Positions 4,387-29,283 of a stretch of DNA of 64,000 bases are shown here, one piece after another. Each line of letters opens with the position of its first letter. The stretch's first letter is position 1. The notes beneath the pieces were generated by a model. The model worked only from the letters and a program-made list of their open reading frames with translations. It did no database searches and was not told where the DNA came from. The stretch is from Rhizobiales bacterium Y(2018) (GTDB lineage Bacteria > Pseudomonadota > Alphaproteobacteria > Rhizobiales > Aestuariivirgaceae), in assembly GCA_005502925.1 (NCBI GenBank), contig SCPD01000009.1, positions 62,001-126,000 on the forward strand. The letters are read 5' to 3'. Position numbers and translations under genes: made by a program.

Positions 4387-6269
<1,883 letters not shown>

Positions 6270-6273
<4 letters not shown>

Positions 6274-8168: not shown

Positions 8169-8170
8169 GG

Positions 8171-9169
8171 ATGCTGCGCTACATCATCGGGCGCATCTTC
8201 ATGATGGTGCCGACGCTGGTAATCATCTCAGCGCTGGTCTTCACCATCATCGAGCTGCCACCGGGCGATTATTTCGAAAGCTATGTGGCGGAACTGCAGG
8301 CGCAGGGCGAAAGCGTCAATGCCGAGCAGATCGAGGCGCTGCGCCAGGAGTATGGTTTCGACAAGCCGCCGGTGGTGCGCTATTTCCACTGGGTCGCCGG
8401 CATGCTGACCGGCGATTTCGGCTATTCCTTCGAATACCGGCTGCCGGTGATGGATGTGGTGGGCGACCGGCTGTGGCTCACCATCCTGGTGTCGTTCACC
8501 ACCATCATCTTCACCTGGCTGATCGCCTTTCCGATCGGCATCTATTCGGCGACCCATCAATATAGCTGGGGCGATTACGGCCTGACCTTCCTCGGCCTCA
8601 TGGGCATCGCCGTGCCCAATTTCATGATGGCGCTGGTGTTCATGTATCTCGCCAATGTGTGGTTCGGGACCTCGATCGGCCATCTGATGGATCCACAATA
8701 TATGGACCAGTCGATGAGCTGGGAAAAGGTCAAGTCCATCCTGGCGCATCTATGGATTCCGGTGGTGATCATCGGCACCGCGGGGACCGCCGGCATGGTC
8801 CGGCGCCTGCGCGCCAATCTGCTCGATGAGCTGCAGAAGCAATATGTGGTGACGGCGCGCGCCAAGGGCCTGCATCCGTTCAAGGCGCTGGTCAAATATC
8901 CGTTACGCATGGCGCTCAACTTCTTCATCTCCGATATCGGCTCGATCCTCCCGGCGATCATCTCGGGCGCCGAGATCACCGCCATCGTGCTGTCGCTCGA
9001 GACGACCGGACCGCTTTTGATCCGGGCGCTCAAAAGCCAGGACATGTACCTCGCCGGCTCGTTCCTGATGTTCCTGGCCTTCCTCACGGTCATCGGCGTA
9101 CTCATTTCGGATCTGGCGCTCGCGGTGCTCGATCCGCGCATCAGGCTGCAGGGCGGAAGCACGAAATGA
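8171..9169 (+). CDS. ABC transporter permease, DppB/OppB type
   Basis: This 332-residue inner-membrane protein has the DppB layout: an N-terminal helix (MLRYIIGRIFMMVPTLVIIS), a periplasmic segment ending in GDFGYSFEY, and five further helices. The coupling segment facing the ATPase is VVTARAKGLHPFKALVKYPLR. The start is 2 bases after the binding-protein stop, and the end overlaps the next permease by four bases, which is typical of a translationally coupled importer operon. Confidence 0.93.
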   Translation: MLRYIIGRIFMMVPTLVIISALVFTIIELPPGDYFESYVAELQAQGESVNAEQIEALRQEYGFDKPPVVRYFHWVAGMLTGDFGYSFEYRLPVMDVVGDRLWLTILVSFTTIIFTWLIAFPIGIYSATHQYSWGDYGLTFLGLMGIAVPNFMMALVFMYLANVWFGTSIGHLMDPQYMDQSMSWEKVKSILAHLWIPVVIIGTAGTAGMVRRLRANLLDELQKQYVVTARAKGLHPFKALVKYPLRMALNFFISDIGSILPAIISGAEITAIVLSLETTGPLLIRALKSQDMYLAGSFLMFLAFLTVIGVLISDLALAVLDPRIRLQGGSTK

Positions 9170-10347
9170 ACGACATGACGCCGCTGCCGCCGCCGGGCCA
9201 GCCGCTCGGGCATTATGTCTCGACGGCTCCCTTCGATCCGTCGACGACCGAGACAATGAGCGAGCAGCAGAAGCGGGTATTCCTCGCTTCGCAATGGAAG
9301 CTGATGTGGTGGAAGTTCAAGCGCCACAGGCTGGCGCTCATCTCCGCCATCATCCTCGCCATCCTCTATGCGATGATCGTCATCGCCGAGTTCCTGGCGC
9401 CCTATAATCTCGCCACCCGGAATGTGAGCGCCATCTATGCGCCGCCGCAGAGTGTCCGGCTGTTCCATGAGGGGAGCTTCGTCGGGCCGTTCGTCTATGG
9501 CCGCACCGTCCAGCTCAACATGGAGAATCTCAAGCGCGAATATAAGGACGACACCAAAAACGTGCAGAAGCTGCGCTTCTTCTGCAGCGGCGACAAATAC
9601 AAGTTCTGGGGCCTGGTCGAGGCCGACCGTCACTTCGTCTGCCCGGCCGAGGGCGGCCAGTTCTTCCTGCTCGGCACCGACCAGCTCGGCCGGGATGTTT
9701 TCTCGCGCATCATCTACGGCGCCCGCATCTCGCTGACCATCGGTCTCCTTGGCGTCTCGGTGAGCTTCATTCTCGGAATCGTGATCGGCGGCATCGCCGG
9801 CTATCGCGGCGGCGTCATCGATCTCATTACGCAACGTCTCATCGAAGTGCTGCAGTCACTACCGAGCATTCCCTTATGGCTGGCGCTCGCCGCGATCATG
9901 CCGGTCACCTGGTCGCCGCTGCTTGTCTATTTCGGCATCACCTTCATCCTGGGTCTGCTCGACTGGACCGGACTTGCCCGCGCGGTACGCTCGAAACTGC
10001 TGGCGCTGCGTGAGGAAGATTACGTCCTAGCGGCACAGCTCATGGGCGCCAAGGGCAGCCGTATCATCGGCCGTCATCTGGTCCCCGGATTCATGTCGCA
10101 TTTGATCGCCTCGGCCACCATATCCATCCCCGGCATGATCCTCGGTGAAACCGCATTGAGCTTCCTAGGCCTGGGCCTTCGCCCCCCCATCGTCAGCTGG
10201 GGGGTGCTGCTCAATGAAGCCACCAATATCAACGTCGTGGCGCTCTATCCCTGGCTCATGCTGCCGGTCATTCCGGTGATCGTCGTCATATTGGCATTCA
10301 ACTTCCTGGGGGACGGACTGCGCGATGCGGCCGATCCGTATAAGTAA
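9166..10347 (+). CDS. ABC transporter permease, DppC/OppC type, with long periplasmic segment
   Basis: The 393-residue protein has the DppC core: FLLGTDQLGRDVFSRIIYGARIS, GYRGG, the coupling motif EEDYVLAAQLMGAKGSRII, and ETALSFLGLGLRPP near the C-terminus. It differs from ordinary DppC by about 90 extra residues between the first helix and the core (roughly 95-160), which include two cysteines (FFCSGDKY and HFVCPAEGG) that could form a periplasmic disulfide. This extended form occurs in peptide-type transporters with large binding proteins. It completes the importer. Confidence 0.92.
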   Translation: MNDMTPLPPPGQPLGHYVSTAPFDPSTTETMSEQQKRVFLASQWKLMWWKFKRHRLALISAIILAILYAMIVIAEFLAPYNLATRNVSAIYAPPQSVRLFHEGSFVGPFVYGRTVQLNMENLKREYKDDTKNVQKLRFFCSGDKYKFWGLVEADRHFVCPAEGGQFFLLGTDQLGRDVFSRIIYGARISLTIGLLGVSVSFILGIVIGGIAGYRGGVIDLITQRLIEVLQSLPSIPLWLALAAIMPVTWSPLLVYFGITFILGLLDWTGLARAVRSKLLALREEDYVLAAQLMGAKGSRIIGRHLVPGFMSHLIASATISIPGMILGETALSFLGLGLRPPIVSWGVLLNEATNINVVALYPWLMLPVIPVIVVILAFNFLGDGLRDAADPYK

Positions 10348-10448: not shown

Positions 10449-11666
10449 ATGACGATGCGTCGGCTGGAACATGCCCGCATTCTCATGTACAGCCACGACA
10501 CGTTCGGGCTCGGACATTTGAGGCGGTGTCGCACTATTGCACATTCTCTCGTCGAGAATTACCGGGGCCTGAGCGTTCTCATCATCTCAGGGTCCACCAT
10601 CGCCGGCGCCTTCGATTACCGGGTGCGCGTCGATTTCGTTAAAATCCCCTCGATCATCAAGCTGCACAACGGCGATTATACGTCGATCGACCGGCATACC
10701 GATCTCCATGAAACGCTGGAGATGCGCCAGGCGATCATCCGCCATACGGCCGAGTCCTTCCAGCCCGATCTCTTCATCGTCGATAAGGAGCCTTTGGGCC
10801 TGCGCGGCGAGCTCGAGGAGACGCTCTCCTATCTCAAGACCCACGGCACCACCCTGGTGCTGGGCCTGCGCGAGGTCATGGACGCGCCCGAACTGCTCAA
10901 GGCGGAATGGGCGAAGCGCGACGTGCTGCGCAAGATCGGTGTGTTTTATGATTCGATCTGGGTCTACGGACCGGAGGACTTCTACGATCCGCTGACCGGC
11001 TTCGATGTTTCGCCCGCGGTGCGCTCACGCATGCACTATGTCGGGTTCCTGCAGCGTCACATGACGCAGGTCGATGTGCCGGTACGCGACGTCGAAGGCA
11101 GTTACATCCTGGCGACGACGGGCGGCGGCGGCGACGGCGCCGATCTCATCCACAATATCTTCGACGCCTATCATCATGATCCGTCGCTGAAACACAAAAT
11201 GCTGATCGTGCTCGGCCCCTTCATGCCGGCGCGCAAGAGGCGCAAGCTCGTCAAAAAGGGCTCCGCCATCCCGTATGTCGAGATCATCGAATTCGACAAC
11301 CGCATGGAGAACCTGATCGCCGGCGCCCGCGCCGTCGTCAGCATGGGCGGCTATAACACCTTCTGCGAGATCCTCTCCTTCGACAAGCCGGCCCTGATCG
11401 TGCCGCGCGTCACGCCGCGTGAGGAGCAACTGATCCGCGCCAGCCGCGCCGCCGAGCTCGGCGTCATCGACATGCTGCGGCCGGAAGAGGCCGAAGATCC
11501 GGCCAAGCTCGCCCGGGCGCTCAAGGCGCTGCCGGAGCGGGCGCCGCCGTCGCAAGTGACCTCCAAGCTCAAGCTCGATGGACTCGAGAAGATCACCGAC
11601 CTGGTCGGCGAATGGCTCGAGCCCGGCTCGCAGAAGCGGCTCACGGTCGTCGAAGGCGGCAATTAG
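10449..11666 (+). CDS. MurG-like glycosyltransferase, first of two
   Basis: The 405-residue cytoplasmic protein has a GT-B fold resembling MurG. The N-terminal domain carries GLGHLRRCR (residues 20-28), equivalent to the acceptor-side GxGHxxR loop. The C-terminal donor domain has ATTGGGGDG and the strongly conserved MGGYNTFCEILSF segment that contacts the nucleotide sugar. It lacks a signal peptide. It starts the glycan cluster, about 100 bases after the peptide importer, with GGGGA before the ATG. Donor and acceptor are unknown, and it is not MurG itself because the flanking genes are not mur/fts genes. Confidence 0.82.
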   Translation: MTMRRLEHARILMYSHDTFGLGHLRRCRTIAHSLVENYRGLSVLIISGSTIAGAFDYRVRVDFVKIPSIIKLHNGDYTSIDRHTDLHETLEMRQAIIRHTAESFQPDLFIVDKEPLGLRGELEETLSYLKTHGTTLVLGLREVMDAPELLKAEWAKRDVLRKIGVFYDSIWVYGPEDFYDPLTGFDVSPAVRSRMHYVGFLQRHMTQVDVPVRDVEGSYILATTGGGGDGADLIHNIFDAYHHDPSLKHKMLIVLGPFMPARKRRKLVKKGSAIPYVEIIEFDNRMENLIAGARAVVSMGGYNTFCEILSFDKPALIVPRVTPREEQLIRASRAAELGVIDMLRPEEAEDPAKLARALKALPERAPPSQVTSKLKLDGLEKITDLVGEWLEPGSQKRLTVVEGGN

Positions 11667-11730
11667 AGCATGATGAGTTTGTCCCGGCTCATCGAAGGTC
11701 CTGCTTCACCATCTTCGCTCTATCCTGATG

Positions 11731-11770
11731 GATGCTTCGAGGCTCGCTGCGCTCGCACCTCAGCATGAGG
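11731..11770. repeat. Dispersed rhizobial-type palindromic element
   Basis: This 40-base stretch (starting GATGCTTCGAGGCTCG and ending CAGCATGAGG) contains nested inverted repeats and matches, from memory, a palindrome that is very common between genes in Bradyrhizobium and related genomes. It occupies the 115-base gap between two glycosyltransferase genes and ends 11 bases before the second ATG, so it lies in the 5' untranslated region of that gene. Confidence 0.55.
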
Positions 11771-11781
11771 GGCATTGAGAG

Positions 11782-13017
11782 ATGACGAAGATCGTCATTG
11801 TGCTCAAGGGGTATCCGCGTTTGTCGGAGACCTTCATCGCCCAGGAATTGCTTGGGCTCGAGCGCGTCGGCCATGAGCTTTATCTCGTCTCGATGCGCCA
11901 TCCGACCGACAAGAAGCGCCATCCCGTCCATGACGAGATCAAGGCGCCGGTGCGCTATCTGCCGGAATATCTCCATGACGAGCCCTGGCGCGTCATCCGC
12001 TCGTGGTGGAAGGCGCGGCGCCTGCCGCATTACAAGCGCCTGCGCAAAGTCTTCCTCGCCGATCTCAAGCTCGATCCGACGCGCAATCGCTGGCGCCGCT
12101 TCGGCCAGGCCTTGGTGCTCGCCGCCGAGTTTCCCGAGGATGCCGACTGGCTCCATGCGCATTTCATTCACACGCCGGGCTCGGTCACGCTCTATGCGAG
12201 CCTGATCCTCGATACCGGTTGGAGCTGCTCGGCGCATGCCAAGGACATCTGGACGTCGCCCGACTGGGACTTGCGCGCCAAGCTCGGCCAGGCACGCTTC
12301 GTGGTGACCTGCACCAAAGCCGGCTTCGACAAGCTCCAAAGTCTCAGCCCCGATCCGGCGCGCGTCCACTTGAGCTATCACGGCCTCGATCTCTCCCGCT
12401 TCGCATCCTTCGAAGGCACCCGCCCGGCGCGTGATGGCAGGGATGCGCAAGATCCGGTTCTGCTTCTCAGCGTCGGCCGGGCGGTCGAGAAGAAGGGCTA
12501 TGACATCCTGCTCGCCGCTCTGGCGCTTCTGCCGAATACTCTCGCCTGGCGTTTCGTCCATATCGGCGGCGGCGAAGAATTGAGCAAGCTCAAGGCGCAG
12601 GCCGAGACATTGGGACTTACCTCGCGCATCACCTGGCTCGGCTCGCGGGCGCAGGAGGAGGTGCTGGCAAAATATCGCGAGAGCGATCTCTTCGTGCTGC
12701 CCTGCCGCATCGCCAGCGACGGCGACCGCGACGGCCTGCCCAATGTCCTGGTCGAGGCGTCGAGCCAGGGGCTCGCCTGCATATCGACGACGGTCTCCGG
12801 AGTGCCGGAACTTCTGAGCGATGGCGTCAACGGCCTCCTGATTCCACCCGAGGACGCCCAAGCTTTGAGCGCCGCTTTGGCCCGCGCGATCGCAGATCCG
12901 GAATTGCGCCTGAGGCTCGGGGCCGCGGCGGAGACGCGCGTGCGCGCGAATTTCGATCACAAGAGCAGCATAGAAGAGCTCACCCGGCTCTTCCGCACAG
13001 CGCGGGGCCATTCATGA
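11782..13017 (+). CDS. GT4-family glycosyltransferase
   Basis: This 411-residue protein has the GT-B layout of family 4. The N-terminal acceptor domain includes WLHAHFIHTPGSVT near residue 127. The C-terminal domain includes LLSVGRAVEKKGYDILL, the donor loop RIASDGDRDGLPNVLVEA with the EX7E-type acidic pair, and GVPELLSDGVNGLLIPPED. It transfers a sugar from a nucleotide-sugar donor, most likely in surface polysaccharide assembly given its neighbours. Its stop overlaps the start of the next glycosyltransferase by four bases, so the two are translationally coupled. Confidence 0.9.
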   Translation: MTKIVIVLKGYPRLSETFIAQELLGLERVGHELYLVSMRHPTDKKRHPVHDEIKAPVRYLPEYLHDEPWRVIRSWWKARRLPHYKRLRKVFLADLKLDPTRNRWRRFGQALVLAAEFPEDADWLHAHFIHTPGSVTLYASLILDTGWSCSAHAKDIWTSPDWDLRAKLGQARFVVTCTKAGFDKLQSLSPDPARVHLSYHGLDLSRFASFEGTRPARDGRDAQDPVLLLSVGRAVEKKGYDILLAALALLPNTLAWRFVHIGGGEELSKLKAQAETLGLTSRITWLGSRAQEEVLAKYRESDLFVLPCRIASDGDRDGLPNVLVEASSQGLACISTTVSGVPELLSDGVNGLLIPPEDAQALSAALARAIADPELRLRLGAAAETRVRANFDHKSSIEELTRLFRTARGHS

Positions 13018-14144
13018 AGGCGCTCGTCTATGTGCAGCACCTTCTCGGCATCGGCCATCTGGCGCGGGTCAGCCGGATCGCGGCGGCGCTCGCCAAAGCG
13101 GGCGCCGACGTCACCCTGGTGAGCGGCGGCGCCGTTGTCTCAGGCTTCCCACCGCAGGGCGTCAAGCTCGTCCAACTGCCCGCCATCCGCGCGCGCGACA
13201 TGTCCTTCTCGGCGCTCATCGACGATGACGGCAACACCATCGATGACGTCTTCAAGGCGAACCGGCGTGACCGGCTCATCCAGGCCTTCGACGCGGTGCA
13301 GCCGGATGTCCTCATCATCGAGGCCTTTCCCTTCGGCCGGCGGCAGATGCGGTTCGAATTGCTGCCGCTGCTGACGCATGCGCGCGCAACGGCCAGGCCG
13401 CCGCTCATCGCCAGCTCGGTGCGCGACATATTGCAGGAGAACCGCAAAGCCGGGCGCGCCGAGGAAACGCTTACCACGTTGCGTAACTTCTTCGACTTCG
13501 TGCTCGTCCATGGCGATCCTCAATTCGCACGCCTCGAGGAGACTTTCCCGCTGGCCGGCGAGATCGCCGACCGCATCGTCTATACGGGGCTCGTGGCGGG
13601 GGAGGCGGCGACGTCGCCCGACCGTTTCGACGTGGTGGTCTCGGCCGGGGGCGGCGTGGTCGGCCGCAAGCTCATCGACGCGGCGCTTGCGGCGGCACCT
13701 GGCCTTCTCGGCCGCTGGCCGCGCTGGTGCATCCTCACCGGACCCAACTTCCCTGCGGCCGAACGGGCCACACTCCAGGCCAGCCTGCCGGCCGGTGTCG
13801 TCCTCGAGACTTTCCGGGCCGATTTTCCGGGCCTTCTTGCCAACGCACGGTTGTCCGTCTCGCAGGCCGGCTACAATACGGTCTGCGACATATTACGGGC
13901 CGGCTGCCCTGCGGTCCTCATTCCCTTCGCGGAAGGCGGTGAAACCGAGCAAAGCGACCGTGCCCGGCGCCTGGCGACGCTCGGGCTCGCGGCCGTGGTG
14001 GCGGAAGACCGCCTCACGCCCGGGAGCCTGGCGGACGCCATGGCGGCGGCGCCGGCTCCCCGCGGCCTCACGCTCAATCTCGACGGCGCAGCCGAGACGG
14101 CGCGTATCCTCGAACAACTGCTGGAGCGCTGCGGGGGCTCATAA
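13014..14144 (+). CDS. MurG-like glycosyltransferase, second of two
   Basis: This 376-residue GT-B protein is related to the gene at 10449: GIGHLARVSRIAAAL (residues 12-26), VVVSAGGGVVGRKL in the donor domain, and VSQAGYNTVCDILRAGCPAVL, the MurG-like UDP-sugar contact region. It is cytoplasmic with no membrane segment. The ATG overlaps the GT4 stop by four bases. Having two MurG-like transferases around a GT4 suggests three successive glycosyl transfers on one lipid-linked or polymer acceptor, but the product is unknown. Confidence 0.83.
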   Translation: MKALVYVQHLLGIGHLARVSRIAAALAKAGADVTLVSGGAVVSGFPPQGVKLVQLPAIRARDMSFSALIDDDGNTIDDVFKANRRDRLIQAFDAVQPDVLIIEAFPFGRRQMRFELLPLLTHARATARPPLIASSVRDILQENRKAGRAEETLTTLRNFFDFVLVHGDPQFARLEETFPLAGEIADRIVYTGLVAGEAATSPDRFDVVVSAGGGVVGRKLIDAALAAAPGLLGRWPRWCILTGPNFPAAERATLQASLPAGVVLETFRADFPGLLANARLSVSQAGYNTVCDILRAGCPAVLIPFAEGGETEQSDRARRLATLGLAAVVAEDRLTPGSLADAMAAAPAPRGLTLNLDGAAETARILEQLLERCGGS

Positions 14145-14385: not shown

Positions 14386-17115
14386 ATGGATAAGAATCTC
14401 GCCAAATATATCTGGAGGCATACGAGCCGGCATCAGATCTGGATTCTGTTCATCATCCTCCTGTCGATGCCGACCTATTTCCTCTCGCTCGACCTGCCGA
14501 AACAGATCGTCAACGGGCCGATCCAAGGCGACGGCTTCAGCACGCCCGATGCGAAGGAAGTCTTCCTGCGGCTGGTGATCGACCTGCCGGACTGGCTCTC
14601 GAAAGCCCAGCCCTACGTCCTGTTCGAGGGCTTCAGCCTCGAGCGGCTGCAGATGCTGATGGCGCTGTCGGGCGCCTTTCTCGTTCTCGTCATCATCAAC
14701 GGCCTGTTCAAGCTCTATATCAATACCTTCAAGGGCCGGCTCGGCGAGCGCATGCTGCGCCGCCTGCGCTTTCAGCTCATCGACCGCGTGCTGCGCTTTC
14801 CGCCCAATGTCTTCAAGCGCGTGAAGGCGGCCGAAGTCGCCACCATGGTGAAGGACGAGGTCGAGCCGCTCGGCGGCTTTATCGGCGACGCTTTCGTGCA
14901 GCCGGCCTTTCTCGGCCTCCAGGCGGCGACCGCGCTGTTCTTCATCCTTCTGCAGAATGTCTGGCTTGGCCTCCTCGCGGCCTTCATGGTGGGCATCCAG
15001 GGCGTGGTCATCCCGAAGATGCGCCGCCGCCTCATCCGGCTCGGCAAGGAGCGTCAGCTCACCGCGCGCCAGCTCGCCGGCCGCGTCGGCGAGATCGTCG
15101 AAGGCATTTCCTCGATCCATGTCCACGATACGTCGAACTACGAGCGCGCCGATGTCGCCGAGCGGCTCGGTCGCATCTTCAAGATCCGCTACGACCTCTA
15201 TCAGTGGAAATTCTTCGTCAAATTCCTCAACAATTTCCTCGCCCAGGTCACGCCTTTCCTGTTCTACGCGATCGGCGGCTATCTGGCGTTGCGCGGGCAG
15301 CTCGACATCGGTCAGCTCATCGCGGTGATCTCGGCCTATAAGGACCTGCCGTCGCCGATCAAGGACCTGATCGACTGGGACCAGCAGCGCATCGACGTCC
15401 AGGTCAAATATGCCCAGGTCTATGAGCAGTTCCATGTCGACCAGATCATCGAGCCGGCCATACAGGATGTGACGAGCGGCCCGGTGGCGCCGATCAAGAC
15501 GCCGATCTCCGTCATCAATTTCTCGGCCAGCGACGACAGCGGCGCCAGGCTCCTCGAGAACATCACGCTCGATATGAGGCCCGGCGAGAGCGTCGCCGTC
15601 ATCGGCACGGCAGGCGGCGGCAGCGAGGCCCTGGCCGACACGCTGGTGCGTCTGGTGTGGCCGGAGCAGGGGCGCGTCAGCATCAATGGCGAAGATCTGC
15701 TTTTTCTTCCGGAAGCGTTCACCGGGCGGCGCACCGCCTATGCCTCTGGCGATGCTTTCCTGTTCCAAGGCACCATCTACGACAATCTGACCTATGTGCT
15801 GAAGCATTATCCGGTGCGCGAGCGCGTCTATGAGGGCGCGGCGCTGGCCCATCGCGACTGGGAAAAGACGGAAGCGCGCAACGCCGGCAATCCCGATCAC
15901 GATCTGCATGGCGACTGGATCGACTATGCGACGATCGGCGTCGACGGGCCGGATGAGCTGTTCACGGCCATGGAGCAGACGCTCGAGGCCGTACAATTCT
16001 CGGACGATGTTTTCGATCTGGGCCTCAGGGCATCTGTCAACGAGAAGGTCCATCCGGCAATCCCCGAGCATGTCGTCGCGGCGCGCAAGGCGCTCAGGAC
16101 ACGGCTCGAGGAAGAGAACTTGGCGAGCCTCGTCACCTCCTTCGATGCGGCGCTCTACAATGCCGAGGCGACGGTCGCGGAGAATCTGCTGTTCGGCACG
16201 CCGGTGGGGCCTGAGCTTTCCAACACGAACCTGGCATCCAACGCCTATTTCCGCTCGGTGCTGGCGCAAGCAGGGCTCGATGAGGCGCTCTACCGGATGG
16301 GCGTCGAGATCGCCCGCAACGCCGTCGAGCTGTTCCGCGACCTGCCGCCCGACCACCCGTTCTTCCAGCAACTGGGCTTCATGACCGCGGACGAGATCCC
16401 CGACTACCAGGCGCTGCTGCAAAGGCTGCAGGACAAGCCCTTCGCGCAAGTCGCCGAGGCCGACGGCAAGCGGATGATGAAACTCGCCTTCTCCTATGTC
16501 GAGCCGCGCTATCGCTTCGGCCTTCTCGATCAGGAGATGATGGATCGCATCGTGGCGGCGCGCGCCGCCTTCCATGACAATCTGCCGGAGAGCCTCAAGG
16601 GCACGATCGAGCCTTACGATGCCGAAGGCTACAACAAATCCGCCAGCATTCTGGATAATGTGCTGTTCGGTCGCATCGGCCATCGCCATGCCGACGCCGC
16701 CGACCGCATTCGCGCCATCGTGCGCTCGGTCCTCGACGATCTCGATGTCAGTAGAGATGTGGTGAGGGTCGGTTTGGAGTTCAATGTGGGCGTCGGCGGC
16801 CGCCGCCTCACCTCGGTGCAGCGCCAGAAGCTGCATGTCGCCCGCGCTTTGCTGAAGCGCGGCGATTTCATCATTCTCAACAAGGCGTTATCCTCGGTCG
16901 AGCAGCGCACCCAGGAACAGCTGGTGCGCTCGGTGCTGGGCGAGGCGGCGCGCGACGGGCGCAAGCCGGCGGTCATCTGGGTGCTGAGCAATCCAAATCT
17001 CGCCCGGCTGTTCGACCGGGTGGTGGTGCTCGACCGGGGGACCGCGGTCGAGGATGGGAATTACGACCAGCTGATGGCTCGAAAGGGCGTATTCGCCGGG
17101 CTTCTGGCGTCGTAA
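14386..17115 (+). CDS. ABC exporter-like protein with catalytically degenerate ATPase domain
   Basis: The 909-residue protein has a type IV (ABCB-like) transmembrane domain (about 1-345) and an NBD-like region (about 372-909). Every catalytic motif is altered. Walker A is GTAGGGSE (407-414) with no lysine. The Q-loop position reads ASGDAFLF. The signature is LTSVQ (808-812). Walker B is FIILNK (828-833) instead of LDE. The switch histidine position reads LSNP (867-870). Between the Q-loop area and signature there are about 300 extra residues that repeat a TIxxNLLFG-like motif (463-470, 596-604, 754-762). It cannot be a normal ATPase by known rules. It heads an operon with a cNMP-binding protein 32 bases downstream. 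Confidence 0.85.
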   Translation: MDKNLAKYIWRHTSRHQIWILFIILLSMPTYFLSLDLPKQIVNGPIQGDGFSTPDAKEVFLRLVIDLPDWLSKAQPYVLFEGFSLERLQMLMALSGAFLVLVIINGLFKLYINTFKGRLGERMLRRLRFQLIDRVLRFPPNVFKRVKAAEVATMVKDEVEPLGGFIGDAFVQPAFLGLQAATALFFILLQNVWLGLLAAFMVGIQGVVIPKMRRRLIRLGKERQLTARQLAGRVGEIVEGISSIHVHDTSNYERADVAERLGRIFKIRYDLYQWKFFVKFLNNFLAQVTPFLFYAIGGYLALRGQLDIGQLIAVISAYKDLPSPIKDLIDWDQQRIDVQVKYAQVYEQFHVDQIIEPAIQDVTSGPVAPIKTPISVINFSASDDSGARLLENITLDMRPGESVAVIGTAGGGSEALADTLVRLVWPEQGRVSINGEDLLFLPEAFTGRRTAYASGDAFLFQGTIYDNLTYVLKHYPVRERVYEGAALAHRDWEKTEARNAGNPDHDLHGDWIDYATIGVDGPDELFTAMEQTLEAVQFSDDVFDLGLRASVNEKVHPAIPEHVVAARKALRTRLEEENLASLVTSFDAALYNAEATVAENLLFGTPVGPELSNTNLASNAYFRSVLAQAGLDEALYRMGVEIARNAVELFRDLPPDHPFFQQLGFMTADEIPDYQALLQRLQDKPFAQVAEADGKRMMKLAFSYVEPRYRFGLLDQEMMDRIVAARAAFHDNLPESLKGTIEPYDAEGYNKSASILDNVLFGRIGHRHADAADRIRAIVRSVLDDLDVSRDVVRVGLEFNVGVGGRRLTSVQRQKLHVARALLKRGDFIILNKALSSVEQRTQEQLVRSVLGEAARDGRKPAVIWVLSNPNLARLFDRVVVLDRGTAVEDGNYDQLMARKGVFAGLLAS

Positions 17116-17147
17116 TATGGATGGAGTGGAAATGGGAGTGATGAGAC

Positions 17148-17612
17148 ATGCAGCTCAAGGATGAAGTGGAGCTGTTGCGGCGCGTGCCGCTCTTCTCGAA
17201 TGTCGCGCCGGCCAAGCTCAAGCTTCTGGCCTTCACGTCGGATCGCGTCAATTTCGACCAGGGCCAGACGCTGTTCAAGCAAGGCGATCCGGGCGACGCC
17301 GCCTATGTGGTGCTGTCGGGTTCGGCCGATGTTCTGGTCAATTCGCAAAGCGGCGAGATCAAGGTGGCGACGCTCGAACCCAATTCGATCGTCGGTGAGA
17401 TCGCCATTCTTTGCGACGTGTCGCGCACCGCAACCGTCAAAGCCAATGCGCCGCTCGAGACGCTGCGCATCCGCAAGGATCATTTCCTCAGATTGCTGGC
17501 GGAATTTCCGGAAATGGCCGTCGAGATCATGCGGGTGCTCGCCGATCGCCTGAGCCATACGACCGCCGAGCTCAGCGAAGCGCGCAGCGATCTCCGGCGA
17601 AAAGCGAATTAG
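17148..17612 (+). CDS. Stand-alone cyclic-nucleotide-binding protein
   Basis: This 154-residue protein is one CAP-type cyclic-nucleotide-binding domain. The phosphate-binding cassette is well kept: VGEIAILCDVSRTATV (about residues 84-99) has the Glu that binds the ribose and the Arg that binds the cyclic phosphate. The C-terminus is a charged helix (RLSHTTAELSEARSDLRRK), and no helix-turn-helix follows, so it is not a Crp-type transcription factor. It probably senses cAMP or cGMP made by the cyclase 18 bases downstream and acts on a partner protein, with the exporter-like protein upstream as the obvious candidate. A GGGAG ribosome site precedes the ATG. Confidence 0.9.
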   Translation: MQLKDEVELLRRVPLFSNVAPAKLKLLAFTSDRVNFDQGQTLFKQGDPGDAAYVVLSGSADVLVNSQSGEIKVATLEPNSIVGEIAILCDVSRTATVKANAPLETLRIRKDHFLRLLAEFPEMAVEIMRVLADRLSHTTAELSEARSDLRRKAN

Positions 17613-17630
17613 AGCGCCGGGAGGTTCGGG

Positions 17631-19325
17631 ATGACCGCTCCCGATGCCGCCTTGCCGTACAAGCCCGTGTTCCGCGTGACACTGCGCCAGCTGCGGCTGG
17701 CGACCGGCCTCGTGCTCTTTGCTTTCGCAACGACGCATTTCCTCAATCACGCCGTCGGCCTGGTGTCGATCGAGACGATGGAGGAAGTGCGCTCCTGGCG
17801 CATCGCCGTCACCCGCAGCGTTCCCGGCACGGCCATCCTGCTCATCTCGTTCCTCGTCCATTTCGTGCTCGGGATCGTGGTGTTCATCCGGCGCCGCAGC
17901 CTGAAGATCAGCCCGCATGAATGGGTGCAACTCGGTTTCGGCCTGCTCATCCCGCTGCTGCTGATCCGCCATGTCACCGCGACGCGCGGCGCCCACATCT
18001 ATGCCGGTGTCGATGACAATTACTTTTATGCATTGTGGGCCATGTGGCCGGCCGAGGCCTGGCGGCAGGCGGCGCTGATGACGCTGGTCTGGGTGCACGG
18101 GCTCATCGGCCTGCATCACTGGCTGGAATTCAAGCCGTGGTACCGTCGGCTGAAATGGCTTTGGGTGGTGCTCGCGACATTGATTCCGACGCTCGCCTTT
18201 GCCGGCTTCACCTCGGCCGGGCGCGCCATCCGTTTTGAGACGGATTTCCAGCCGCCGATGACCCAGGAGCAGTTCGATTTCCTGCATGGGCTGCTCGATT
18301 ACGAATTCTACGGTTATCTGGGACTGCTCGCTGTGATCGTGGCGGCGCGCCTCGGCCTCGGATTGCTCGACCGCTACCGGCACACGATCGCCATCACCTA
18401 TACCGGCGGGCAACGCGTGTCGGCGCGCCGGGGTCTTTCCATTCTGGAAATCAGCCGCCTCAACAACATACCGCATGCCTCGGTCTGTGGCGGACGCGCC
18501 CGCTGCTCCACCTGCCGGATCCGCGTGATCGAAGGTCCGGGGGATCAGCCGCCGGTCGATGCCAATGAGCAGAAAGTGCTGAAGCGGGTGGGCGCCCCCA
18601 CCAATGTCCGGCTCGCCTGCCAATTCCGGCCGGAGACCGACCTCACCATCACGACGCTCCTGCCGGCGGTGACGGCCGATACAGTGAATGGACTCGTCGA
18701 TAAATATTTCTGGGGCGTGGAGCAGGAGGTCACCGTCATGTTCTGCGACCTCAGGGGCTTCACCAGATTGTCGCAGCAGCGTCTCTCCTATGACGTTGTG
18801 TTCCTTCTCAACCAGTATCTGGGCCGCATGAGCGAGGTCATCATCGATACCGGGGGCTATGTCGACAAATTCATGGGGGACGGGATCATGGCGATCTTCG
18901 GCATGGACAAGAGCGGCAAGGCCGGCGCCCGGGACGCGCTCGCGGCGGTGCGCGCCATGGGCGGGGTGCTCGACGCCCTCAATCAAAGCCTGCATGACGA
19001 AATGCGCGGCATGCTCGAAATGGGCATCGGGCTTCATTCGGGGACGGCCATTCTCGGCCGCATCGGGGCAGCCGGCAGAGGCTCGGCGGCGCTGGGCGTC
19101 ACCGCGCTCGGTGATACGGTAAATACGGCAAGCCGGCTGGAGGGCGCCTGCAAGGAGCTCAACATGCAGGCCATCATCTCCAGGGCGGTCCTCGACAAGG
19201 CGGAAGCCGAATTTGGCGGGCTCGAGACCCAGAGCATCGAGATCAGGGGGAGGGCCGGGGCGCTCGACGTGGTCATGGTGAAGCGGGCGACGCAATTGCC
19301 CGCTTTAGAGTCGCCTAAGCCGTAG
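17631..19325 (+). CDS. Membrane adenylate cyclase with 2Fe-2S ferredoxin domain (CyaC-like)
   Basis: The 564-residue protein has three parts. Residues 20-247 hold about six membrane helices with several helix histidines (H36, H40, H77, H114, H156, H162), like the diheme cytochrome b anchor of succinate dehydrogenase. Residues 251-345 form a plant-type ferredoxin with C286, C292, C295 and C330. Residues 365-545 form a class III cyclase with metal ligands D373 and D417, adenine-selecting K413 and T491 (the Lys/Thr pair of class IIIb), and N498/R502. From memory, Sinorhizobium meliloti CyaC is a quinone-responsive relative. It should convert ATP to cAMP under redox control. A GGGAGG site lies before the ATG. 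Confidence 0.92.
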   Translation: MTAPDAALPYKPVFRVTLRQLRLATGLVLFAFATTHFLNHAVGLVSIETMEEVRSWRIAVTRSVPGTAILLISFLVHFVLGIVVFIRRRSLKISPHEWVQLGFGLLIPLLLIRHVTATRGAHIYAGVDDNYFYALWAMWPAEAWRQAALMTLVWVHGLIGLHHWLEFKPWYRRLKWLWVVLATLIPTLAFAGFTSAGRAIRFETDFQPPMTQEQFDFLHGLLDYEFYGYLGLLAVIVAARLGLGLLDRYRHTIAITYTGGQRVSARRGLSILEISRLNNIPHASVCGGRARCSTCRIRVIEGPGDQPPVDANEQKVLKRVGAPTNVRLACQFRPETDLTITTLLPAVTADTVNGLVDKYFWGVEQEVTVMFCDLRGFTRLSQQRLSYDVVFLLNQYLGRMSEVIIDTGGYVDKFMGDGIMAIFGMDKSGKAGARDALAAVRAMGGVLDALNQSLHDEMRGMLEMGIGLHSGTAILGRIGAAGRGSAALGVTALGDTVNTASRLEGACKELNMQAIISRAVLDKAEAEFGGLETQSIEIRGRAGALDVVMVKRATQLPALESPKP

Positions 19326-19363
19326 AACATGCTACGATAACGCCTGAGCGAGGGTTCAAGTCG

Positions 19364-20197
19364 TTGAAAGAAAAGAGTGAATTCACAGTAAAGTTTTGGG
19401 GCTCCAGAGGCAGCATTCCGGTGTCGGGACCGGAAGTCGTGCGCTATGGCGGTGATTCGTCGTGCGTCGAGATGCGCTGCGGCGAGCATATTTTGATGTT
19501 CGACGCGGGGTCAGGCCTCAAGCGCGCCGGCCAGGAGCTGGAGCGCGAGGGCGTCGAGCGCCTCGACATGTTTTTCTCGCACTGCCATTGGGATCACATC
19601 TTCGGCATTCCCTTCTTCATGCCGTTCTATCGCGGCAGCAACCAGATCCGTATCTGGTCGGGCCATCTCGCCGGGGTGATGACCACGCATGAGATGATTT
19701 CCGGAATCATGAAGGCGCCCTATTTCCCGATCGCGCCGGAGATCTTCATCGCCGATGTCGACTACAAGGATTTCAAGCCGGGCGATGTGCTGAAGCCCCA
19801 TGCGGGCATCGTGCTGCGCACCGCGAGCCTCAATCATCCCAATGCGGCGGTCGGCTACCGCGTCGAATTCGCGGGCAAGTCCGCCTGCTATATCACCGAC
19901 ACCGAGCATGTGCCGGGCAAGCCCGACCAGAATGTGCTGAAGCTCATCGATCATGCCGATCTCGTCATCTATGACGCGGCCTTCACCGATAAGGAGATGC
20001 CACGCTATCGCGGCTTCGGCCATTCGAGCTGGGAAGAAGGTGTGCGGCTGTGCAAAGCGGCCAAGGCGAAGCAGCTCGCCATCTTCCATCATTCGCCTTT
20101 GCGCAACGACGACGAGCTGGACAAGATCGGTGCCGAGGCGAAAGAGGCTTTCCCCGGCGCCGTCGTGGCAAGCCAGGGGCTAGTGATCACGCTCTGA
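19364..20197 (+). CDS. Metallo-beta-lactamase-fold hydrolase
   Basis: The 277-residue protein begins at a TTG (19364) preceded by CGAGGG, and the frame has no better ATG before the conserved N-terminus WGSRGSIPVSGP. It has the metal motif SHCHWDHIFG (HxHxDH, about residues 70-79), an aspartate block near DTEHVP, and a late histidine in AIFHHSP. The family includes phosphodiesterases such as PhnP-like and class II cyclic-nucleotide phosphodiesterases. Lying 38 bases behind the adenylate cyclase, it could degrade the cyclic nucleotide, but that is inference. Its 3' end overlaps the converging deacetylase gene by 11 bases. Confidence 0.88.
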   Translation: MKEKSEFTVKFWGSRGSIPVSGPEVVRYGGDSSCVEMRCGEHILMFDAGSGLKRAGQELEREGVERLDMFFSHCHWDHIFGIPFFMPFYRGSNQIRIWSGHLAGVMTTHEMISGIMKAPYFPIAPEIFIADVDYKDFKPGDVLKPHAGIVLRTASLNHPNAAVGYRVEFAGKSACYITDTEHVPGKPDQNVLKLIDHADLVIYDAAFTDKEMPRYRGFGHSSWEEGVRLCKAAKAKQLAIFHHSPLRNDDELDKIGAEAKEAFPGAVVASQGLVITL

Positions 20198-20936
20198 GAA
20201 GCTCTGCCGGCGCCCGCCAGCTCACTGCGCCGCTCTGCGCAGTAATCGTGAAAAGATCGGCGAGGAAGCGGAAAGCATCGTCATCGCTGACCAGGTGGTG
20301 GCTGAGCACGCCGACAGGCGTGCGGCCGCCCGCGGCGCGCGCTTGCTGCAATTCCTGAACAAGCCCCGCGATCAGCGTGCCGTGATCGCGGCAGCGATTG
20401 CCGGCGCGCGAATCGACGATGTCGATATGGGTATTGACGACGGCGAGACCCGGTCGCGAAGTGAGCTTGTGGCCGAAGGCCGACAGGCCGGTGAAGCCGA
20501 GCGCCGGCAGATCGTCGAGTAGAGACGGATCGATGCGATTCCAGGGCGGCACCAGCATCGGCGTCAGCCGGTCGCCATGGAATTCGCGCAGCCGCGCCAA
20601 GCCTCTCGCCAGCTCGCTGAGCACCGCGTCGCGCGGGCGATGCAGACCGAGCTCCTGCTTCTTCTCCGGCGGCGATGCGTGATTGGCATGTGACCAGCCG
20701 TGAACGACCGGATGGATGATCTTCTCCGCCGCGAGGCGGTTCGCCAAAGCAGGTGCAGTGCGGGCCGGAATGATCGCCAGCGCCACCGGCACATCATGGC
20801 CGCACGCAAGATCGGCGAGCCGATCGAGCGCCGGTGTCGGCTCGATGGCGTCGTCATCGCGCAGCCACAGTGACACGGCGCGGTCGGCATCGCGCCATCG
20901 CGCCAGCTCGTCCCGGAGCGGCTGCCAGAGAGTCAT
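20187..20936 (-). CDS. Polysaccharide deacetylase-family protein
   Basis: This 249-residue protein has the NodB-type pattern: an acidic metal/catalytic pair in LWLRDDDAIEPTPALDRL, the HGWSHANH histidine motif near residue 79, and a late PPWNRIDPSLL segment equivalent to the conserved RxPxG/W region. No signal peptide is visible, so it may act on a cytoplasmic glycan or glycolipid, unlike secreted chitin deacetylases. It is the second gene of a minus-strand pair, with its start overlapping the GT4 stop by four bases. It probably removes N-acetyl groups from the sugar product of the cluster. Confidence 0.82.
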   Translation of the reverse strand: MTLWQPLRDELARWRDADRAVSLWLRDDDAIEPTPALDRLADLACGHDVPVALAIIPARTAPALANRLAAEKIIHPVVHGWSHANHASPPEKKQELGLHRPRDAVLSELARGLARLREFHGDRLTPMLVPPWNRIDPSLLDDLPALGFTGLSAFGHKLTSRPGLAVVNTHIDIVDSRAGNRCRDHGTLIAGLVQELQQARAAGGRTPVGVLSHHLVSDDDAFRFLADLFTITAQSGAVSWRAPAELLRA

Positions 20937-22072
20937 GCCAGCACCTCATCGAGTAATGTCGCCAGGCGCTGCGCCGCGTTGGTCAGCGAGCGTTCCTTCA
21001 GCACGAATGCGCGTGCGGCGCGGCCATAGGTTTCGCGCTTGGCGTTATCCGTGAGAAGCGCGCGGATCGCCAACGCATAGGCGTCGACATCGCCTTCCGG
21101 CGTCAGGATGCCGGTCTCGCCATGGCGCACCACGGCGGGAACACCGGCCGTCTCCTGCGCCACCACCGGCAGGCCGGCGGCCTGAGCCTCGAGATAGGCG
21201 ATGCCATAGGCTTCACCCGAGCCCGGCCAGACATAGAGACCGCCTTCGGCCAGTGCGGCGGGCACTTTTTCAGGCGCCATCTCGCCGCGCCAGTCGAGCC
21301 GCTCAGACGGAATGCCGGCAAAGAGGGACATCGTCTCGGCACTCATCGGGCCATCGCCGATGACAGTGAGCCGCCAGGGCAGATCGAGGAGCAGGGGCAG
21401 CGCTTTTGCGAGCATGGTGAAGCTCGCGAATTTGTCGCCCTTGCGCATCATCGCCACCGTCATCAGCCGGGCGGGCGGTGCCGGCGCGAAACCATCGGCG
21501 AAAGCCTGCGTATCGATGAAAGGCGGAAGCGTCGCCAGGCGCACGCCCGGCACCGCCTTCTCCAGTCCGGCGCGGTCGCGTTCGGTGAAACAGAGATTGA
21601 GCCTGGCGAGGCCGATGGCGTCGCGGATCAGCGCCTGGCGTTCGGCCCAGCCCTGGCGATCGCGTTTGCCGGCATAAGAGGCTTCGGCGGTGACATAGGG
21701 AATAGTGAGATGGCGCGCGAGATCAGGGCCCAGAAGATCGGGCGCCTTGTAATAAGGATGATAGGTGAACCACAGATCTGGCTTTTGGCCCCTGCGCCAG
21801 AGCGCCTTGAGCCGTGCCTTCTCGTCATCGGCCGCCTGCAGCACAGGCGCGAAGGCTCGCGGCTCGGGATCGGGTGTGAAGGCGCGCAAGGTGCTCACGA
21901 CATCGGCCGCGAAACCGGCGAGATGCAAAGCCCGCAGGAGCAGCCGCGCCATCTGGCGGTCCCCGGAGGGAACCGGATGGTCGGGCGCTTTGAGCGGGGC
22001 GTAAAAGGCGATCCTCACCCCTTTGCCTATGGCGATGTCGCGTCCGGGCGTCAATCGGGGATCGGTCGCCAA
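20933..22072 (-). CDS. GT4-family glycosyltransferase
   Basis: The 379-residue GT-B protein has a donor domain with LMTVAMMRKGDKFASF, LTVIGDGPM and the EX7E motif SGEAYGIAYLEAQAAGLPVV. The start used is TTG at 22072, which follows a strong GGGAGG. A GTG at 22018 (VRIAFYAPLKAP, where family homology begins) is an alternative that would shorten it by 18 residues. It is coupled to the deacetylase downstream. With the TTG start, only 28 bases separate it from the divergent DUF3095 gene. Confidence 0.87.
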   Translation of the reverse strand: MATDPRLTPGRDIAIGKGVRIAFYAPLKAPDHPVPSGDRQMARLLLRALHLAGFAADVVSTLRAFTPDPEPRAFAPVLQAADDEKARLKALWRRGQKPDLWFTYHPYYKAPDLLGPDLARHLTIPYVTAEASYAGKRDRQGWAERQALIRDAIGLARLNLCFTERDRAGLEKAVPGVRLATLPPFIDTQAFADGFAPAPPARLMTVAMMRKGDKFASFTMLAKALPLLLDLPWRLTVIGDGPMSAETMSLFAGIPSERLDWRGEMAPEKVPAALAEGGLYVWPGSGEAYGIAYLEAQAAGLPVVAQETAGVPAVVRHGETGILTPEGDVDAYALAIRALLTDNAKRETYGRAARAFVLKERSLTNAAQRLATLLDEVLA

Positions 22073-22100: not shown

Positions 22101-23234
22101 ATGACTCATGATGATTTCTTCGAGGCGCTGCCCACTTTCGAGAAGTTCTCCGGCGTCGCCGATGCGGCGAATTATCAACCCTTGCCGGACGACTGGTCGC
22201 TGGCGACGGCCGACATCGTGAGCTCGACCCGGGCGATCGCGCGCGGCGAATACAAGGCCGTCAATATGGCGGGCGCCAGCGTGATCTCGGCTGTGCTCAA
22301 TGCATTGGGTGATGCGCATAAGGTCCCGTTCGTCTTCGGCGGCGATGGCGCGCTGCTGGCGGTGCCCGAAAGTGTTGTGCCTAAGACGCGCGAGGCGCTC
22401 GCTTTGACGCAAGTCTGGGTGAAGGAGGATCTCGATCTCGACCTGCGCGCCGCCATCGTGCCGATGCGCGATATCCGGGCAGGCGGCCATGATGTGCGGG
22501 TGGCGCGTTTCCGCGCCAGCGCCGAAGTCACCTATGCGATGTTCGCCGGCGGCGGTGCCAGCTGGGCGGAAGCGCAGATGAAAGCGGGAAAGTACCGCGT
22601 GCCGGCGGCGGCACCGGGCGCACGCCCGGATCTCTCCGGCCTGTCCTGCCGCTGGGACCCGATCGCGGCGAAGAACGGCGAGATCATTTCCCTCATCGTG
22701 ACCCCGGTCTCGGCGGAGCGCAGCGCGGATTTCACCCGGCTCGTCGACGATATCATCGCCATCATCGACGGCGAGGACCGGGCCGGCCTGCCGGTGCCGC
22801 GCAAATTCGGCTTCCCGCCCAAGGGGCTCAAATATGAGACGCTCGCCACGCATCGCGGATCGCCGCTGTTGCGCAAGCTTCATATCCTGGCCGAAAGCCT
22901 CGCCGGCTGGCTGGTCTTTCAGGGGAATCTGAAGGTCGGCCGCTTCGATGCGGCGGTCTACAAGAACGATGTCGCGCAGAACACCGACTTCCGCAAATTC
23001 GACGACGGCCTCAAGCTCACCGTGGATATCGAGCCGGCCCTCATCACCCGCCTCATCGAGCGCCTCAAACAGGCTTATCAGGCCGGGCTCTGCCGTTATG
23101 GCCTGCACCGTCAGGACCAGGCCCTGATGACCTGCTTCGTTCCCAACCCGTTCGCGCGGGATCATTTCCATTTCATCGACGGCGCCGCCGGTGGTTATGC
23201 CATGGCGGCGGCCGATTTGAAGGGCCGCGTGTAA
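22101..23234 (+). CDS. DUF3095-family protein with cyclase-like motifs
   Basis: The 377-residue soluble protein matches DUF3095 in its N-terminal signature: TADIVSSTRAIARGEYK (residues 36-52), VNMAGA, and VFGGDGALLAVP (78-89). D38 and the GGDG turn at 80-83 sit in the same order and spacing as the two metal sites of class III cyclases and GGDEF proteins (compare D226 and GDG in the cyclase at 2002). The C-terminal half (ALMTCFVP...FHFIDGAAGGYAMA) has no recognised domain. No activity is established for the family as far as I know. It lies beside polysaccharide genes. Confidence 0.83.
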   Translation: MTHDDFFEALPTFEKFSGVADAANYQPLPDDWSLATADIVSSTRAIARGEYKAVNMAGASVISAVLNALGDAHKVPFVFGGDGALLAVPESVVPKTREALALTQVWVKEDLDLDLRAAIVPMRDIRAGGHDVRVARFRASAEVTYAMFAGGGASWAEAQMKAGKYRVPAAAPGARPDLSGLSCRWDPIAAKNGEIISLIVTPVSAERSADFTRLVDDIIAIIDGEDRAGLPVPRKFGFPPKGLKYETLATHRGSPLLRKLHILAESLAGWLVFQGNLKVGRFDAAVYKNDVAQNTDFRKFDDGLKLTVDIEPALITRLIERLKQAYQAGLCRYGLHRQDQALMTCFVPNPFARDHFHFIDGAAGGYAMAAADLKGRV

Positions 23235-23241
23235 GCTTGCA

Positions 23242-23256
23242 GAGCTTCTTAAGCTC
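23242..23256. promoter_or_regulatory. Short inverted repeat before the UDP-glucose dehydrogenase gene
   Basis: GAGCTT and AAGCTC are separated by three bases, 8 bases after the DUF3095 stop and 55 bases before the next ATG. It could be an operator of the dehydrogenase gene or a weak terminator stem; no T-run follows. Confidence 0.3.
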
Positions 23257-23310
23257 CTCTAGCGTAACATGTAACGTCATTGATCTTCTCAAGAGGACGA
23301 GCCAGCCGTC

Positions 23311-24636
23311 ATGAAAATAGCTGTTATCGGGGCCGGTTATGTCGGGCTGGTCTCAGGCGCGTGTCTCGCGCAATTCGGCTTCGATGTGTTCTGCGTCGAC
23401 CATGACGCGGCCAAGGTCGAGGCGCTCAATACCGGTCGTATTCCCATCCACGAGGCCGGGCTCGGCAAGCTCATCCATGACAATGCGCGGGCCGGCCGGC
23501 TCCATTTCACCATGGATCTGAAAGCGGCCGTCTCGAAGGCCGAGGCGGTGTTCATCGCGGTCTCGACCCCGACCCGGCGCGGCGATGACGCCGCCGATCT
23601 CGCTTATGTGCACCAGGCGGCGAGCCAGATCGCCGCGGCGCTCGACGGTTATTGTGTCATCATCACCAAATCCACGGTGCCGGTCGGCACGGCGCGCAAG
23701 CTCAAGGCGCAGATCAAGGCGGAGCGGCCCGATGCCGATTTCGACGTCGCCGCCAATCCGGAATTCCTGCGCGAAGGCTCGGCGGTCGACGACTTCCTGA
23801 AACCCGACCGCGTCGTCATCGGCACGGAATCGAAGCGGGCGCAGGAAGTGCTGCGCAAGATCTATCAGCCGATCGCCATGACGGGCGCGCCGCTCATCTT
23901 CACCGACTTCGAATCGGCCGAGCTCATCAAATATGCCGCCAACGGCTATCTGGCGATGCGGCTCGCCTTCATCAATCAGCTCGCCGATCTGTGCGAGGAA
24001 GTGGGCGGCGACATCGCCGTGGTGGCCAAGGGCATCGGCCATGACAAGCGCATCGGCCATCATTATCTGCAGCCGGGGCCGGGCTTCGGCGGCTCGTGCT
24101 TCCCGAAGGACACCAAGGCCCTGGCCGTTACGGCGCGCGAAGCGGGCGCTCCCTTCAGCCTCATCGAGGCGGTGGTGAAGGCCAATGACAAGCGCAAGCT
24201 CGATTTGTCGATGCGCGTCACCCGCATGCTGGGCGGCTCGGTCGCCGATAAGCGCATCGCCGTGCTGGGTCTTGCCTTCAAAGCGGATACCGACGACATG
24301 CGCGATGCGCCGGCGCTCGATCTCATTCCGGCGCTCACCGCGGCGAAAGCCCAGGTCGTCGCCTATGATCCGGTGGTGAAGCCAAACGGCGCGTCAGCCT
24401 TTGACGGTGTCGAATGGGCGAAGTCCGCCTATGCGGCGGCCAAAGGCGCCGATGCGGTCATCCTGCTCACCGAATGGAACGAATTCAGAGGGCTCGATCT
24501 GACCAAGCTCGCCAAGTCGATGCGCGCGGCGGTGATGATCGACCTGCGCAATCTCTATTCGCCGACTGACATCGCCAAGACGCCCTTCGCCTATCACAGC
24601 ATCGGCCGGCAGGCGATGGGGCCAGCTTCGAACTAG
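23311..24636 (+). CDS. UDP-glucose 6-dehydrogenase family protein
   Basis: The 441-residue protein has the NAD-binding motif VIGAGYVGLVSGACLA (residues 5-20), the middle-domain block NPEFLREGSAVDDF, and the catalytic cysteine in PGFGGSCFPKDTKAL (about residue 260). The length is normal for the family. It oxidises UDP-glucose to UDP-glucuronate, or a related nucleotide sugar, in the cytoplasm. That supplies uronic acid for polysaccharide, fitting the surrounding glycosyltransferases and the polysaccharide lyase at 3327. It has its own AAGAGGA ribosome site and about 75 bases of upstream DNA. It converges on the PP2C gene with one base between stops. Confidence 0.93.
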   Translation: MKIAVIGAGYVGLVSGACLAQFGFDVFCVDHDAAKVEALNTGRIPIHEAGLGKLIHDNARAGRLHFTMDLKAAVSKAEAVFIAVSTPTRRGDDAADLAYVHQAASQIAAALDGYCVIITKSTVPVGTARKLKAQIKAERPDADFDVAANPEFLREGSAVDDFLKPDRVVIGTESKRAQEVLRKIYQPIAMTGAPLIFTDFESAELIKYAANGYLAMRLAFINQLADLCEEVGGDIAVVAKGIGHDKRIGHHYLQPGPGFGGSCFPKDTKALAVTAREAGAPFSLIEAVVKANDKRKLDLSMRVTRMLGGSVADKRIAVLGLAFKADTDDMRDAPALDLIPALTAAKAQVVAYDPVVKPNGASAFDGVEWAKSAYAAAKGADAVILLTEWNEFRGLDLTKLAKSMRAAVMIDLRNLYSPTDIAKTPFAYHSIGRQAMGPASN

Positions 24637-29262: not shown

Positions 29263-29283
29263 CCGCGAATCTCCTTGTGCCGG

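Follow-up and report, generated by a model that had tools for sequence, protein, structure and literature searches.

A conserved pair of an ATPase-dead ABC-like membrane protein and a single-domain cyclic-nucleotide-binding protein in alphaproteobacterial glycan clusters

We analyzed a stretch of 64,000 nucleotides from Rhizobiales bacterium Y(2018) (contig SCPD01000009.1, positions 62,001 to 126,000; the whole stretch is called the window), part of a genome of 7.1 Mb. The locus under study encodes an ATP-binding cassette (ABC) exporter-like membrane protein and, directly downstream, a cyclic-nucleotide-binding (CNB) protein. We see about an even chance that this locus is a conserved surface-glycan cluster which is controlled through the ATPase-dead ABC-like protein together with the single-domain cyclic-nucleotide receptor. 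The steady unit is the ABC-CNB pair (the core), not a set of four genes; the genes for a cyclase and a metallo-beta-lactamase-fold (MBL) hydrolase are an addition to this core in the Hyphomicrobiales (the order below). All parts are members of known families; in the open-licence literature we found no account of an ATPase-dead ABC exporter that has a receptor for cyclic AMP (cAMP) as its partner. The four genes of the window are:

14386..17115, plus strand: ABC-exporter-like membrane protein of 909 amino acids (aa); Pfam ABC_membrane and partial ABC_tran, ATPase motifs lost
17148..17612, plus strand: CNB protein with a single domain, 154 aa; Pfam cNMP_binding alone
17631..19325, plus strand: CyaC-like adenylate cyclase, 564 aa; membrane part, Fer2 ([2Fe-2S]) and Guanylate_cyc (class III)
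19364..20197, plus strand: MBL-fold hydrolase, putative phosphodiesterase, 277 aa; TTG start, Pfam Lactamase_B_2

The list of open reading frames (ORFs) agrees with a preliminary description of this DNA, which had reported four genes on one strand with intergenic gaps of 32, 18 and 38 bases; all four are on the plus strand. That description overlooked both the longer plus-strand cluster in which these genes are embedded and the cyclase-domain gene with which the cluster starts (2002-3327).

The ABC-like protein and its CNB partner

Places in the order were selected by us from the matches of a genome scan (120 places; partial matches were mostly excluded, and several genomes contributed two places), and neighbouring genes were called by profiles built from the loci themselves. 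The rows are not independent: judged by length and identity, L018 and L085 are one locus, and the window has a near-copy in L017. A full-length ABC anchor was present at 118 of the 120 places, and in 114 of these 118 the CNB gene followed immediately downstream, on the same strand, or was fused to the anchor. A CNB gene next to the ABC gene was missing in L077, L182 and L183, whose divergent proteins form one family, and in L128. ABC and CNB are a single protein in 12 of the 118 anchors; further fusions were found on Sulfitobacter and Azospirillum plasmids, among them proteins of 1034 aa in Sulfitobacter dubius (L188) and 1020 aa in Azospirillum thermophilum (L190). On a quick ABC tree of 149 rows, which omits 11 rows with less than 5 kb downstream and incomplete labels as well as L017 and L018, and in which the long-branch rows L188 and L190 are of unsure place, the fused rows form separated groups. 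The CNB gene also adjoins the ABC gene or is fused to it at all 18 full anchors from named genomes (19 loci) and at 18 of 20 loci from other alphaproteobacterial orders. Because natural ABC-CNB fusions exist, contact of the CNB protein with the dead nucleotide-binding domain (NBD) of the ABC protein is likely. A table had suggested CNB-MBL fusions in L026, L071, L157 and L163; they were discarded, since the CNB ORFs are separate and in another frame.

In the order, 124 of 397 genomes carry the ABC gene (E 1e-30); in a class-wide sample, 128 of 385 do (E 1e-100). It was also present in 27 of the 398 genomes of a phylum sample, whose number of genomes from outside the class is not given; all 27 are alphaproteobacterial. 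Matches occur on 337 plasmid records, 144 of them from Rhizobium and 80 from Sinorhizobium, and include pSymB of Sinorhizobium meliloti 1021 (841723-844432) and p42e of Rhizobium etli, both species being laboratory models. The pSymB match of strain 1021 (L191:14001-16710) is one base longer than that of strain 2011, which is either a strain difference or a sequence error. The closest relatives among named genomes are those of Aestuariivirga sp. YIM B02566 (98%) and Taklimakanibacter lacteus (84%). Annotated records of R. etli and R. leguminosarum merely carry the labels "ABC transporter" and "cyclic nucleotide-binding protein". Shorter relatives which match the transmembrane half only (L189:9773-11077 and L184) were seen in Pseudosulfitobacter, where they adjoin copper-oxidase and cytochrome c genes.

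The preliminary description had called the exporter dead, and the window protein, with GTAGGGSE at the Walker A place, LTSVQ at the signature place, and Asn and Lys at the places of the Walker B Asp and Glu, bears this out, as does the family. We aligned 162 ABC rows (window, order, other orders and five plasmid copies; near-copies included). None of them has the complete ATPase motif set, which consists of GK[ST] at Walker A, DE at Walker B and a signature resembling LSGGQ, and we do not count the protein among the active ABC exporters. None of the three motifs is present in 148 rows; Walker A was found in two, Walker B in six and a signature-like stretch in seven, with one row common to the last two groups. 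A Lys occupies the Walker A lysine place in 18 rows, in two of which Ser or Thr is next to it. A looser search for GxxxxGK[ST] anywhere in the protein gave five of 162, two of them at the aligned Walker A place.

The transmembrane part of the protein is well conserved. In comparison with L018, the transmembrane part has a ratio of nonsynonymous to synonymous substitution rates (dN/dS) of 0.15, and the values of the NBD parts are 0.04-0.22; these NBD values rule out that the gene is a decaying pseudogene. Values for the NBD parts against the more distant L019 (0.22-0.79) are read as noise from short, diverged stretches.

In the AlphaFold model of the ABC protein (mean predicted local distance difference test, pLDDT, 75.1; predicted TM-score 0.69), residues from 371 onward mostly score above 80 and earlier ones mostly 40-70. 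Its Foldseek matches are the type IV exporters TM287/288, PCAT1 and MsbA; the query TM-scores do not exceed 0.35, and the whole-chain root-mean-square deviation is at least 15 Å. Together with the ABC_membrane domain, these matches place the protein in the ABC exporter fold. Fold and domain are what it has in common with the type IV exporters; it differs from them in that its family is without the ATPase motifs and has about 300 extra residues, which are located between the Q-loop and the signature. By profile comparison, one segment is present three times after the Q-loop (residues 448-830); its motif lies at 466, 599 and 757, with hhalign probabilities of 94.5, 96.3 and 98.5. We know of no other ABC proteins with such a threefold build.

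For the CNB protein, Pfam matches nothing but cNMP_binding in 154 aa, in line with the receptor without a DNA-binding domain that had been described. The window protein keeps Glu84 and Arg93 of the phosphate-binding cassette. Across 156 rows, Glu is kept in 144, Arg in 147 and both in 137. Among proteins of solved structure, the best relatives found were a Toxoplasma multi-CNB protein and PKA RI-alpha. Support for cAMP as the probable ligand comes from the cassette, from the adenylate-type cyclase next to it and from the exchange of cyclases at one place. A CNB domain outside a transcription factor is a trait shared with TIGR03896 (bacteriocin-type transport-associated protein) and with Pycsar effectors. 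However, the window protein matches TIGR03896 with 44 bits against a cut-off of 161, its partner is an ATPase-dead ABC protein and, unlike in such systems, no peptide or defence genes were found in the scanned neighbourhood.

Cyclases and the MBL hydrolase downstream of the core

Neighbours within 6 kb were counted at 107 order loci downstream of the ABC gene and at 108 upstream as a symmetric control, as well as at 16 loci of other orders with at least 6 kb downstream. The upstream side is frequently occupied by glycan genes and hence is not random DNA. Enrichment in the order is one-sided: downstream, a cyclase lies at 57 of 107 loci, in 53 of them on the same strand, and an MBL relative at 61 of 107, always on the same strand, whereas the upstream counts are 5 of 108 and 1 of 108, respectively. 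Both are found downstream on the same strand at 35 of the 107 loci. The co-occurrence that had been suggested as a check was thus observed at the genome level and as neighbours on one side of the ABC gene: among the 397 order genomes, a close MBL relative is present in 99 of the 124 with the ABC gene versus 13 of the 273 without, and a CyaC-type cyclase in 87 of 124 versus 23 of 273 (Fisher tests, in which genomes were treated as independent and relatedness was left uncorrected). Within 10 kb of an ABC place lie 72 of the 115 MBL places. Mapping the label "both" (cyclase and MBL) on the ABC tree required 15 changes, at least 11 of them on starred branches, with a mean of 41.5 after shuffling. 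The cyclase-MBL pair is clustered on the tree, yet has been gained or lost many times.

The redox-type cyclase of the preliminary description proved to be CyaC-like, a class that is already described, with diheme-type histidines and [2Fe-2S] cysteines. Five membrane histidines, four of which would be the ligands of two hemes, and the cysteines C286, C292, C295 and C330, which fall under a Fer2 match, are invariant in 20 of 20 rows of this type (near-copies included). The class III residues D373, K413, D417, T491, N498 and R502 are of the adenylate type. PMC10463352 describes S. meliloti CyaC as a redox-responsive adenylate cyclase whose activity answers to the quinone redox state. Membrane histidines, the [2Fe-2S] domain and the class III adenylate-type catalytic domain are common to both proteins (PMC10463352); the genes differ in surroundings, that of S. 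meliloti adjoining the TetR-type cycR and a LysR-type gene (PMC10463352) and that of the window the ABC-CNB pair and the MBL gene. Because of this reported behaviour of CyaC (PMC10463352), we propose that the window cyclase may likewise receive a redox input.

Cyclases of different build occupy the same place beside the core. Among ten other neighbouring cyclases examined for hydrophobic stretches, six have five to seven and four have none; ten scanned with Pfam contain the catalytic domain alone, one slightly below the cut-off. The D, D, K, N set of active-site residues is kept in 46 of 72 neighbouring cyclases. In soluble-type cyclases the active-site lysine is replaced by A, S, D or E, so that they may use another nucleotide or be inactive. 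Core-adjoining CyaC-type cyclases with altered active-site residues were seen in L080-L084 and L129-L131; in L081-L083 the CNB cassette is altered alongside, as if receptor and signal had drifted jointly. Relatives of the second cyclase of the window (2002-3327) were found in 27 of 164 loci compared; Rhizobium, Sinorhizobium and Aureimonas carry such relatives in their glycan loci. Genome-wide, Guanylate_cyc has 25 matches.

The MBL protein of the window carries the motif SHCHWDH, of which both histidines, the aspartate and the last histidine are kept in 78 of 78 rows. H73, H75, D77, H78, H158, D179 and H242, which we take to be seven candidate metal ligands, are conserved in the same 78 rows. 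In the structural ranking of its model (pLDDT 88.0), YhfI came first and RNase Z third and almost equal, with Apyc1 structures lower. Atypical class-II phosphodiesterases such as Rv1339, YhfI and the CpdA of Corynebacterium have the motif [T/S]HXHXDH according to PMC9293780; SHCHWDH fits it, though RNase Z fits as well. Like these enzymes, the window protein matches PF12706, and YhfI is its best structural match, whereas RNase Z is nearly as close to it in structure. The protein is likely a phosphodiesterase; that cAMP would be its substrate is a guess from the gene context.

The surrounding glycan cluster

The ABC-CNB core sits within a glycan cluster. In the window, the neighbouring genes are:

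2002..3327, plus strand: second cyclase-domain protein, soluble type, 441 aa
3327..4301, plus strand: polysaccharide lyase (PF14099)
4387..10347, plus strand: oligopeptide-type ABC transporter with a double ATPase, an SBP_bac_5 solute-binding protein and two permeases (permeases named via annotated relatives)
10449..14144, plus strand: three glycosyltransferases (GT28-like, GT4, GT28-like)
20187..22072, minus strand: polysaccharide-deacetylase-like gene, without a Pfam match of its own, and GT4-type glycosyltransferase (names from annotated relatives in L188)
22101..24636, plus strand: DUF3095 protein (22101-23234) and UDP-glucose/GDP-mannose dehydrogenase

Relatives of these genes accompany the core in the order and in other orders. 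At 92 order loci with 8 kb on both sides, relatives were found of GT28a (78), GT4 (75), GT28b (70), GT4b (60), the deacetylase (60), the UDP-sugar dehydrogenase (12) and DUF3095 (10). The 14 loci from other orders gave GT28a 12, GT4 12, GT28b 11, GT4b 11 and deacetylase 7. In R. etli, a cyclase, a transporter, three glycosyltransferases, ABC and CNB stand in one row, and part of the gene order in alphaproteobacterial glycan clusters is kept as a block. The presence of a lyase and a dehydrogenase in the cluster hints at a polymer that contains uronate.

We considered the DUF3095 protein as a further cyclase; the resemblance of its N-terminal part to class III cyclases is faint (hhalign probability 8%). 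The GT28b relative of one S. meliloti strain (L192:11900-13001) was matched as two overlapping, unannotated pieces and looks broken. Further downstream in the window, positions 24638-33116 encode a PP2C-like phosphatase, an amidohydrolase, which presumably resembles NagA, a SIS-domain protein, a sugar-binding regulator and an SBP_bac_1 protein; this is perhaps an amino-sugar region.

Proposed mechanism and alternative explanations

In the mechanism we propose, the CyaC-like cyclase would produce cAMP next to the receptor, reporting the redox state of the quinone pool. The CNB protein, either docked on the dead NBD or fused to it, would bind cAMP and switch the ABC membrane protein. The latter would gate glycan synthesis or export, regulating or scaffolding the machinery without ATP-driven pumping. 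In the Hyphomicrobiales, a local signal source (the cyclase) and a probable signal remover (the MBL hydrolase) would have been added downstream.

Several observations weigh against this mechanism. Neither a cyclase nor an MBL gene is found downstream on the same strand at 28 of the 107 order loci, and within 6 kb downstream neither was detected at any of the 16 loci of other orders. Only 21 of the 115 CyaC-type places are no more than 10 kb away from an ABC place; the CyaC type is therefore a local choice in a minority, other genomes using other cyclases. The D, D, K, N set is incomplete in 26 of the 72 neighbouring cyclases, the second cyclase of the window has Ser at the active-site lysine place, and Glu or Arg of the cassette is absent from 19 of the 156 CNB proteins. 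The MBL sequence scores 92 bits for RNase Z versus 48 bits for the NCBIfam cyclic-nucleotide phosphodiesterase model (cut-off 400). Control of the glycan machinery is suggested only by the gene neighbourhood. The self-contained four-gene circuit of the preliminary description was too narrow and too strong a claim, given a two-gene unit within a glycan cluster, the other orders without the downstream genes and a second cyclase in the window.

The ABC protein might still be a glycan transporter, paired for example with an active half-transporter or otherwise driven, with the CNB protein as an accessory subunit. The type IV exporter fold and the conserved transmembrane part agree with this, as does the Walker A Lys in 18 of 162 rows, two of them with Ser or Thr following; the full motif set, however, occurs in 0 of 162, and no gene for a partner half-transporter was seen beside the window core, though no systematic search for one was made. 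We regard a transporter as unlikely. It is likewise improbable that the CNB protein is a ligand-independent structural subunit, the cyclase and MBL protein serving other cAMP targets such as CRP-like regulators. Cores without a local cyclase in other orders and the CNB proteins without cassette residues speak for such a subunit, as does S. meliloti CyaC, which is reported to act with Clr and CycR (PMC10463352); retention of the cassette in 137 of 156 rows and the enrichment of cyclases beside the core speak against it.

Cyclase and MBL genes could also be passengers of the glycan cluster without a functional tie to ABC and CNB. Since the gene order of glycan clusters is partly block-conserved, joint inheritance explains part of the counts, but gain or loss of both genes takes 11 or more changes on starred branches and cyclases of different build are found at the same place; we hold mere passengers to be rather improbable. 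A Pycsar-like anti-phage system is the least credible of these explanations, with very little chance of being correct. PADLOC PycC models do match the cyclase (best 76 bits), PycTIR and effector models match the CNB protein (best 61 bits), and Apyc1 structures are among the lower-ranking matches of the MBL model. The PADLOC matches, however, are to shared domains only, no PADLOC model matches the MBL protein or, at E 1e-5, the ABC protein, and the locus is a glycan cluster found class-wide instead of a PycC with a TIR or transmembrane effector in a defence setting.

Control of polysaccharide machines by a second messenger is of a known kind, as with cyclic di-GMP (c-di-GMP) and its PilZ- or PelD-type receptors. 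If our proposal is right, a second messenger, a membrane receptor and a glycan output would be common to both, whereas the messenger is different and the receptor unrelated, so that the system of the window is not a member of that group. Beyond CRP-type regulators, few bacterial cAMP receptors have known outputs, to our knowledge. A wider claim, which we put forward tentatively and with less confidence than the control of the cluster as such, is that cAMP acts directly and not via transcription on a surface-polysaccharide machine, through a class-wide dead-ABC switch with a docked or fused CNB domain, interchangeable cyclases and an MBL phosphodiesterase in a redox-fed local circuit.

The locus suggests an undescribed route of cAMP control over the cell surface. 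If true, it would provide a testable output for the CyaC-type redox cyclases. An ABC exporter would have been converted to a signal receptor, and respiration would be linked to the cell surface, in a family that is widespread in the class and includes members on S. meliloti pSymB and R. etli p42e.

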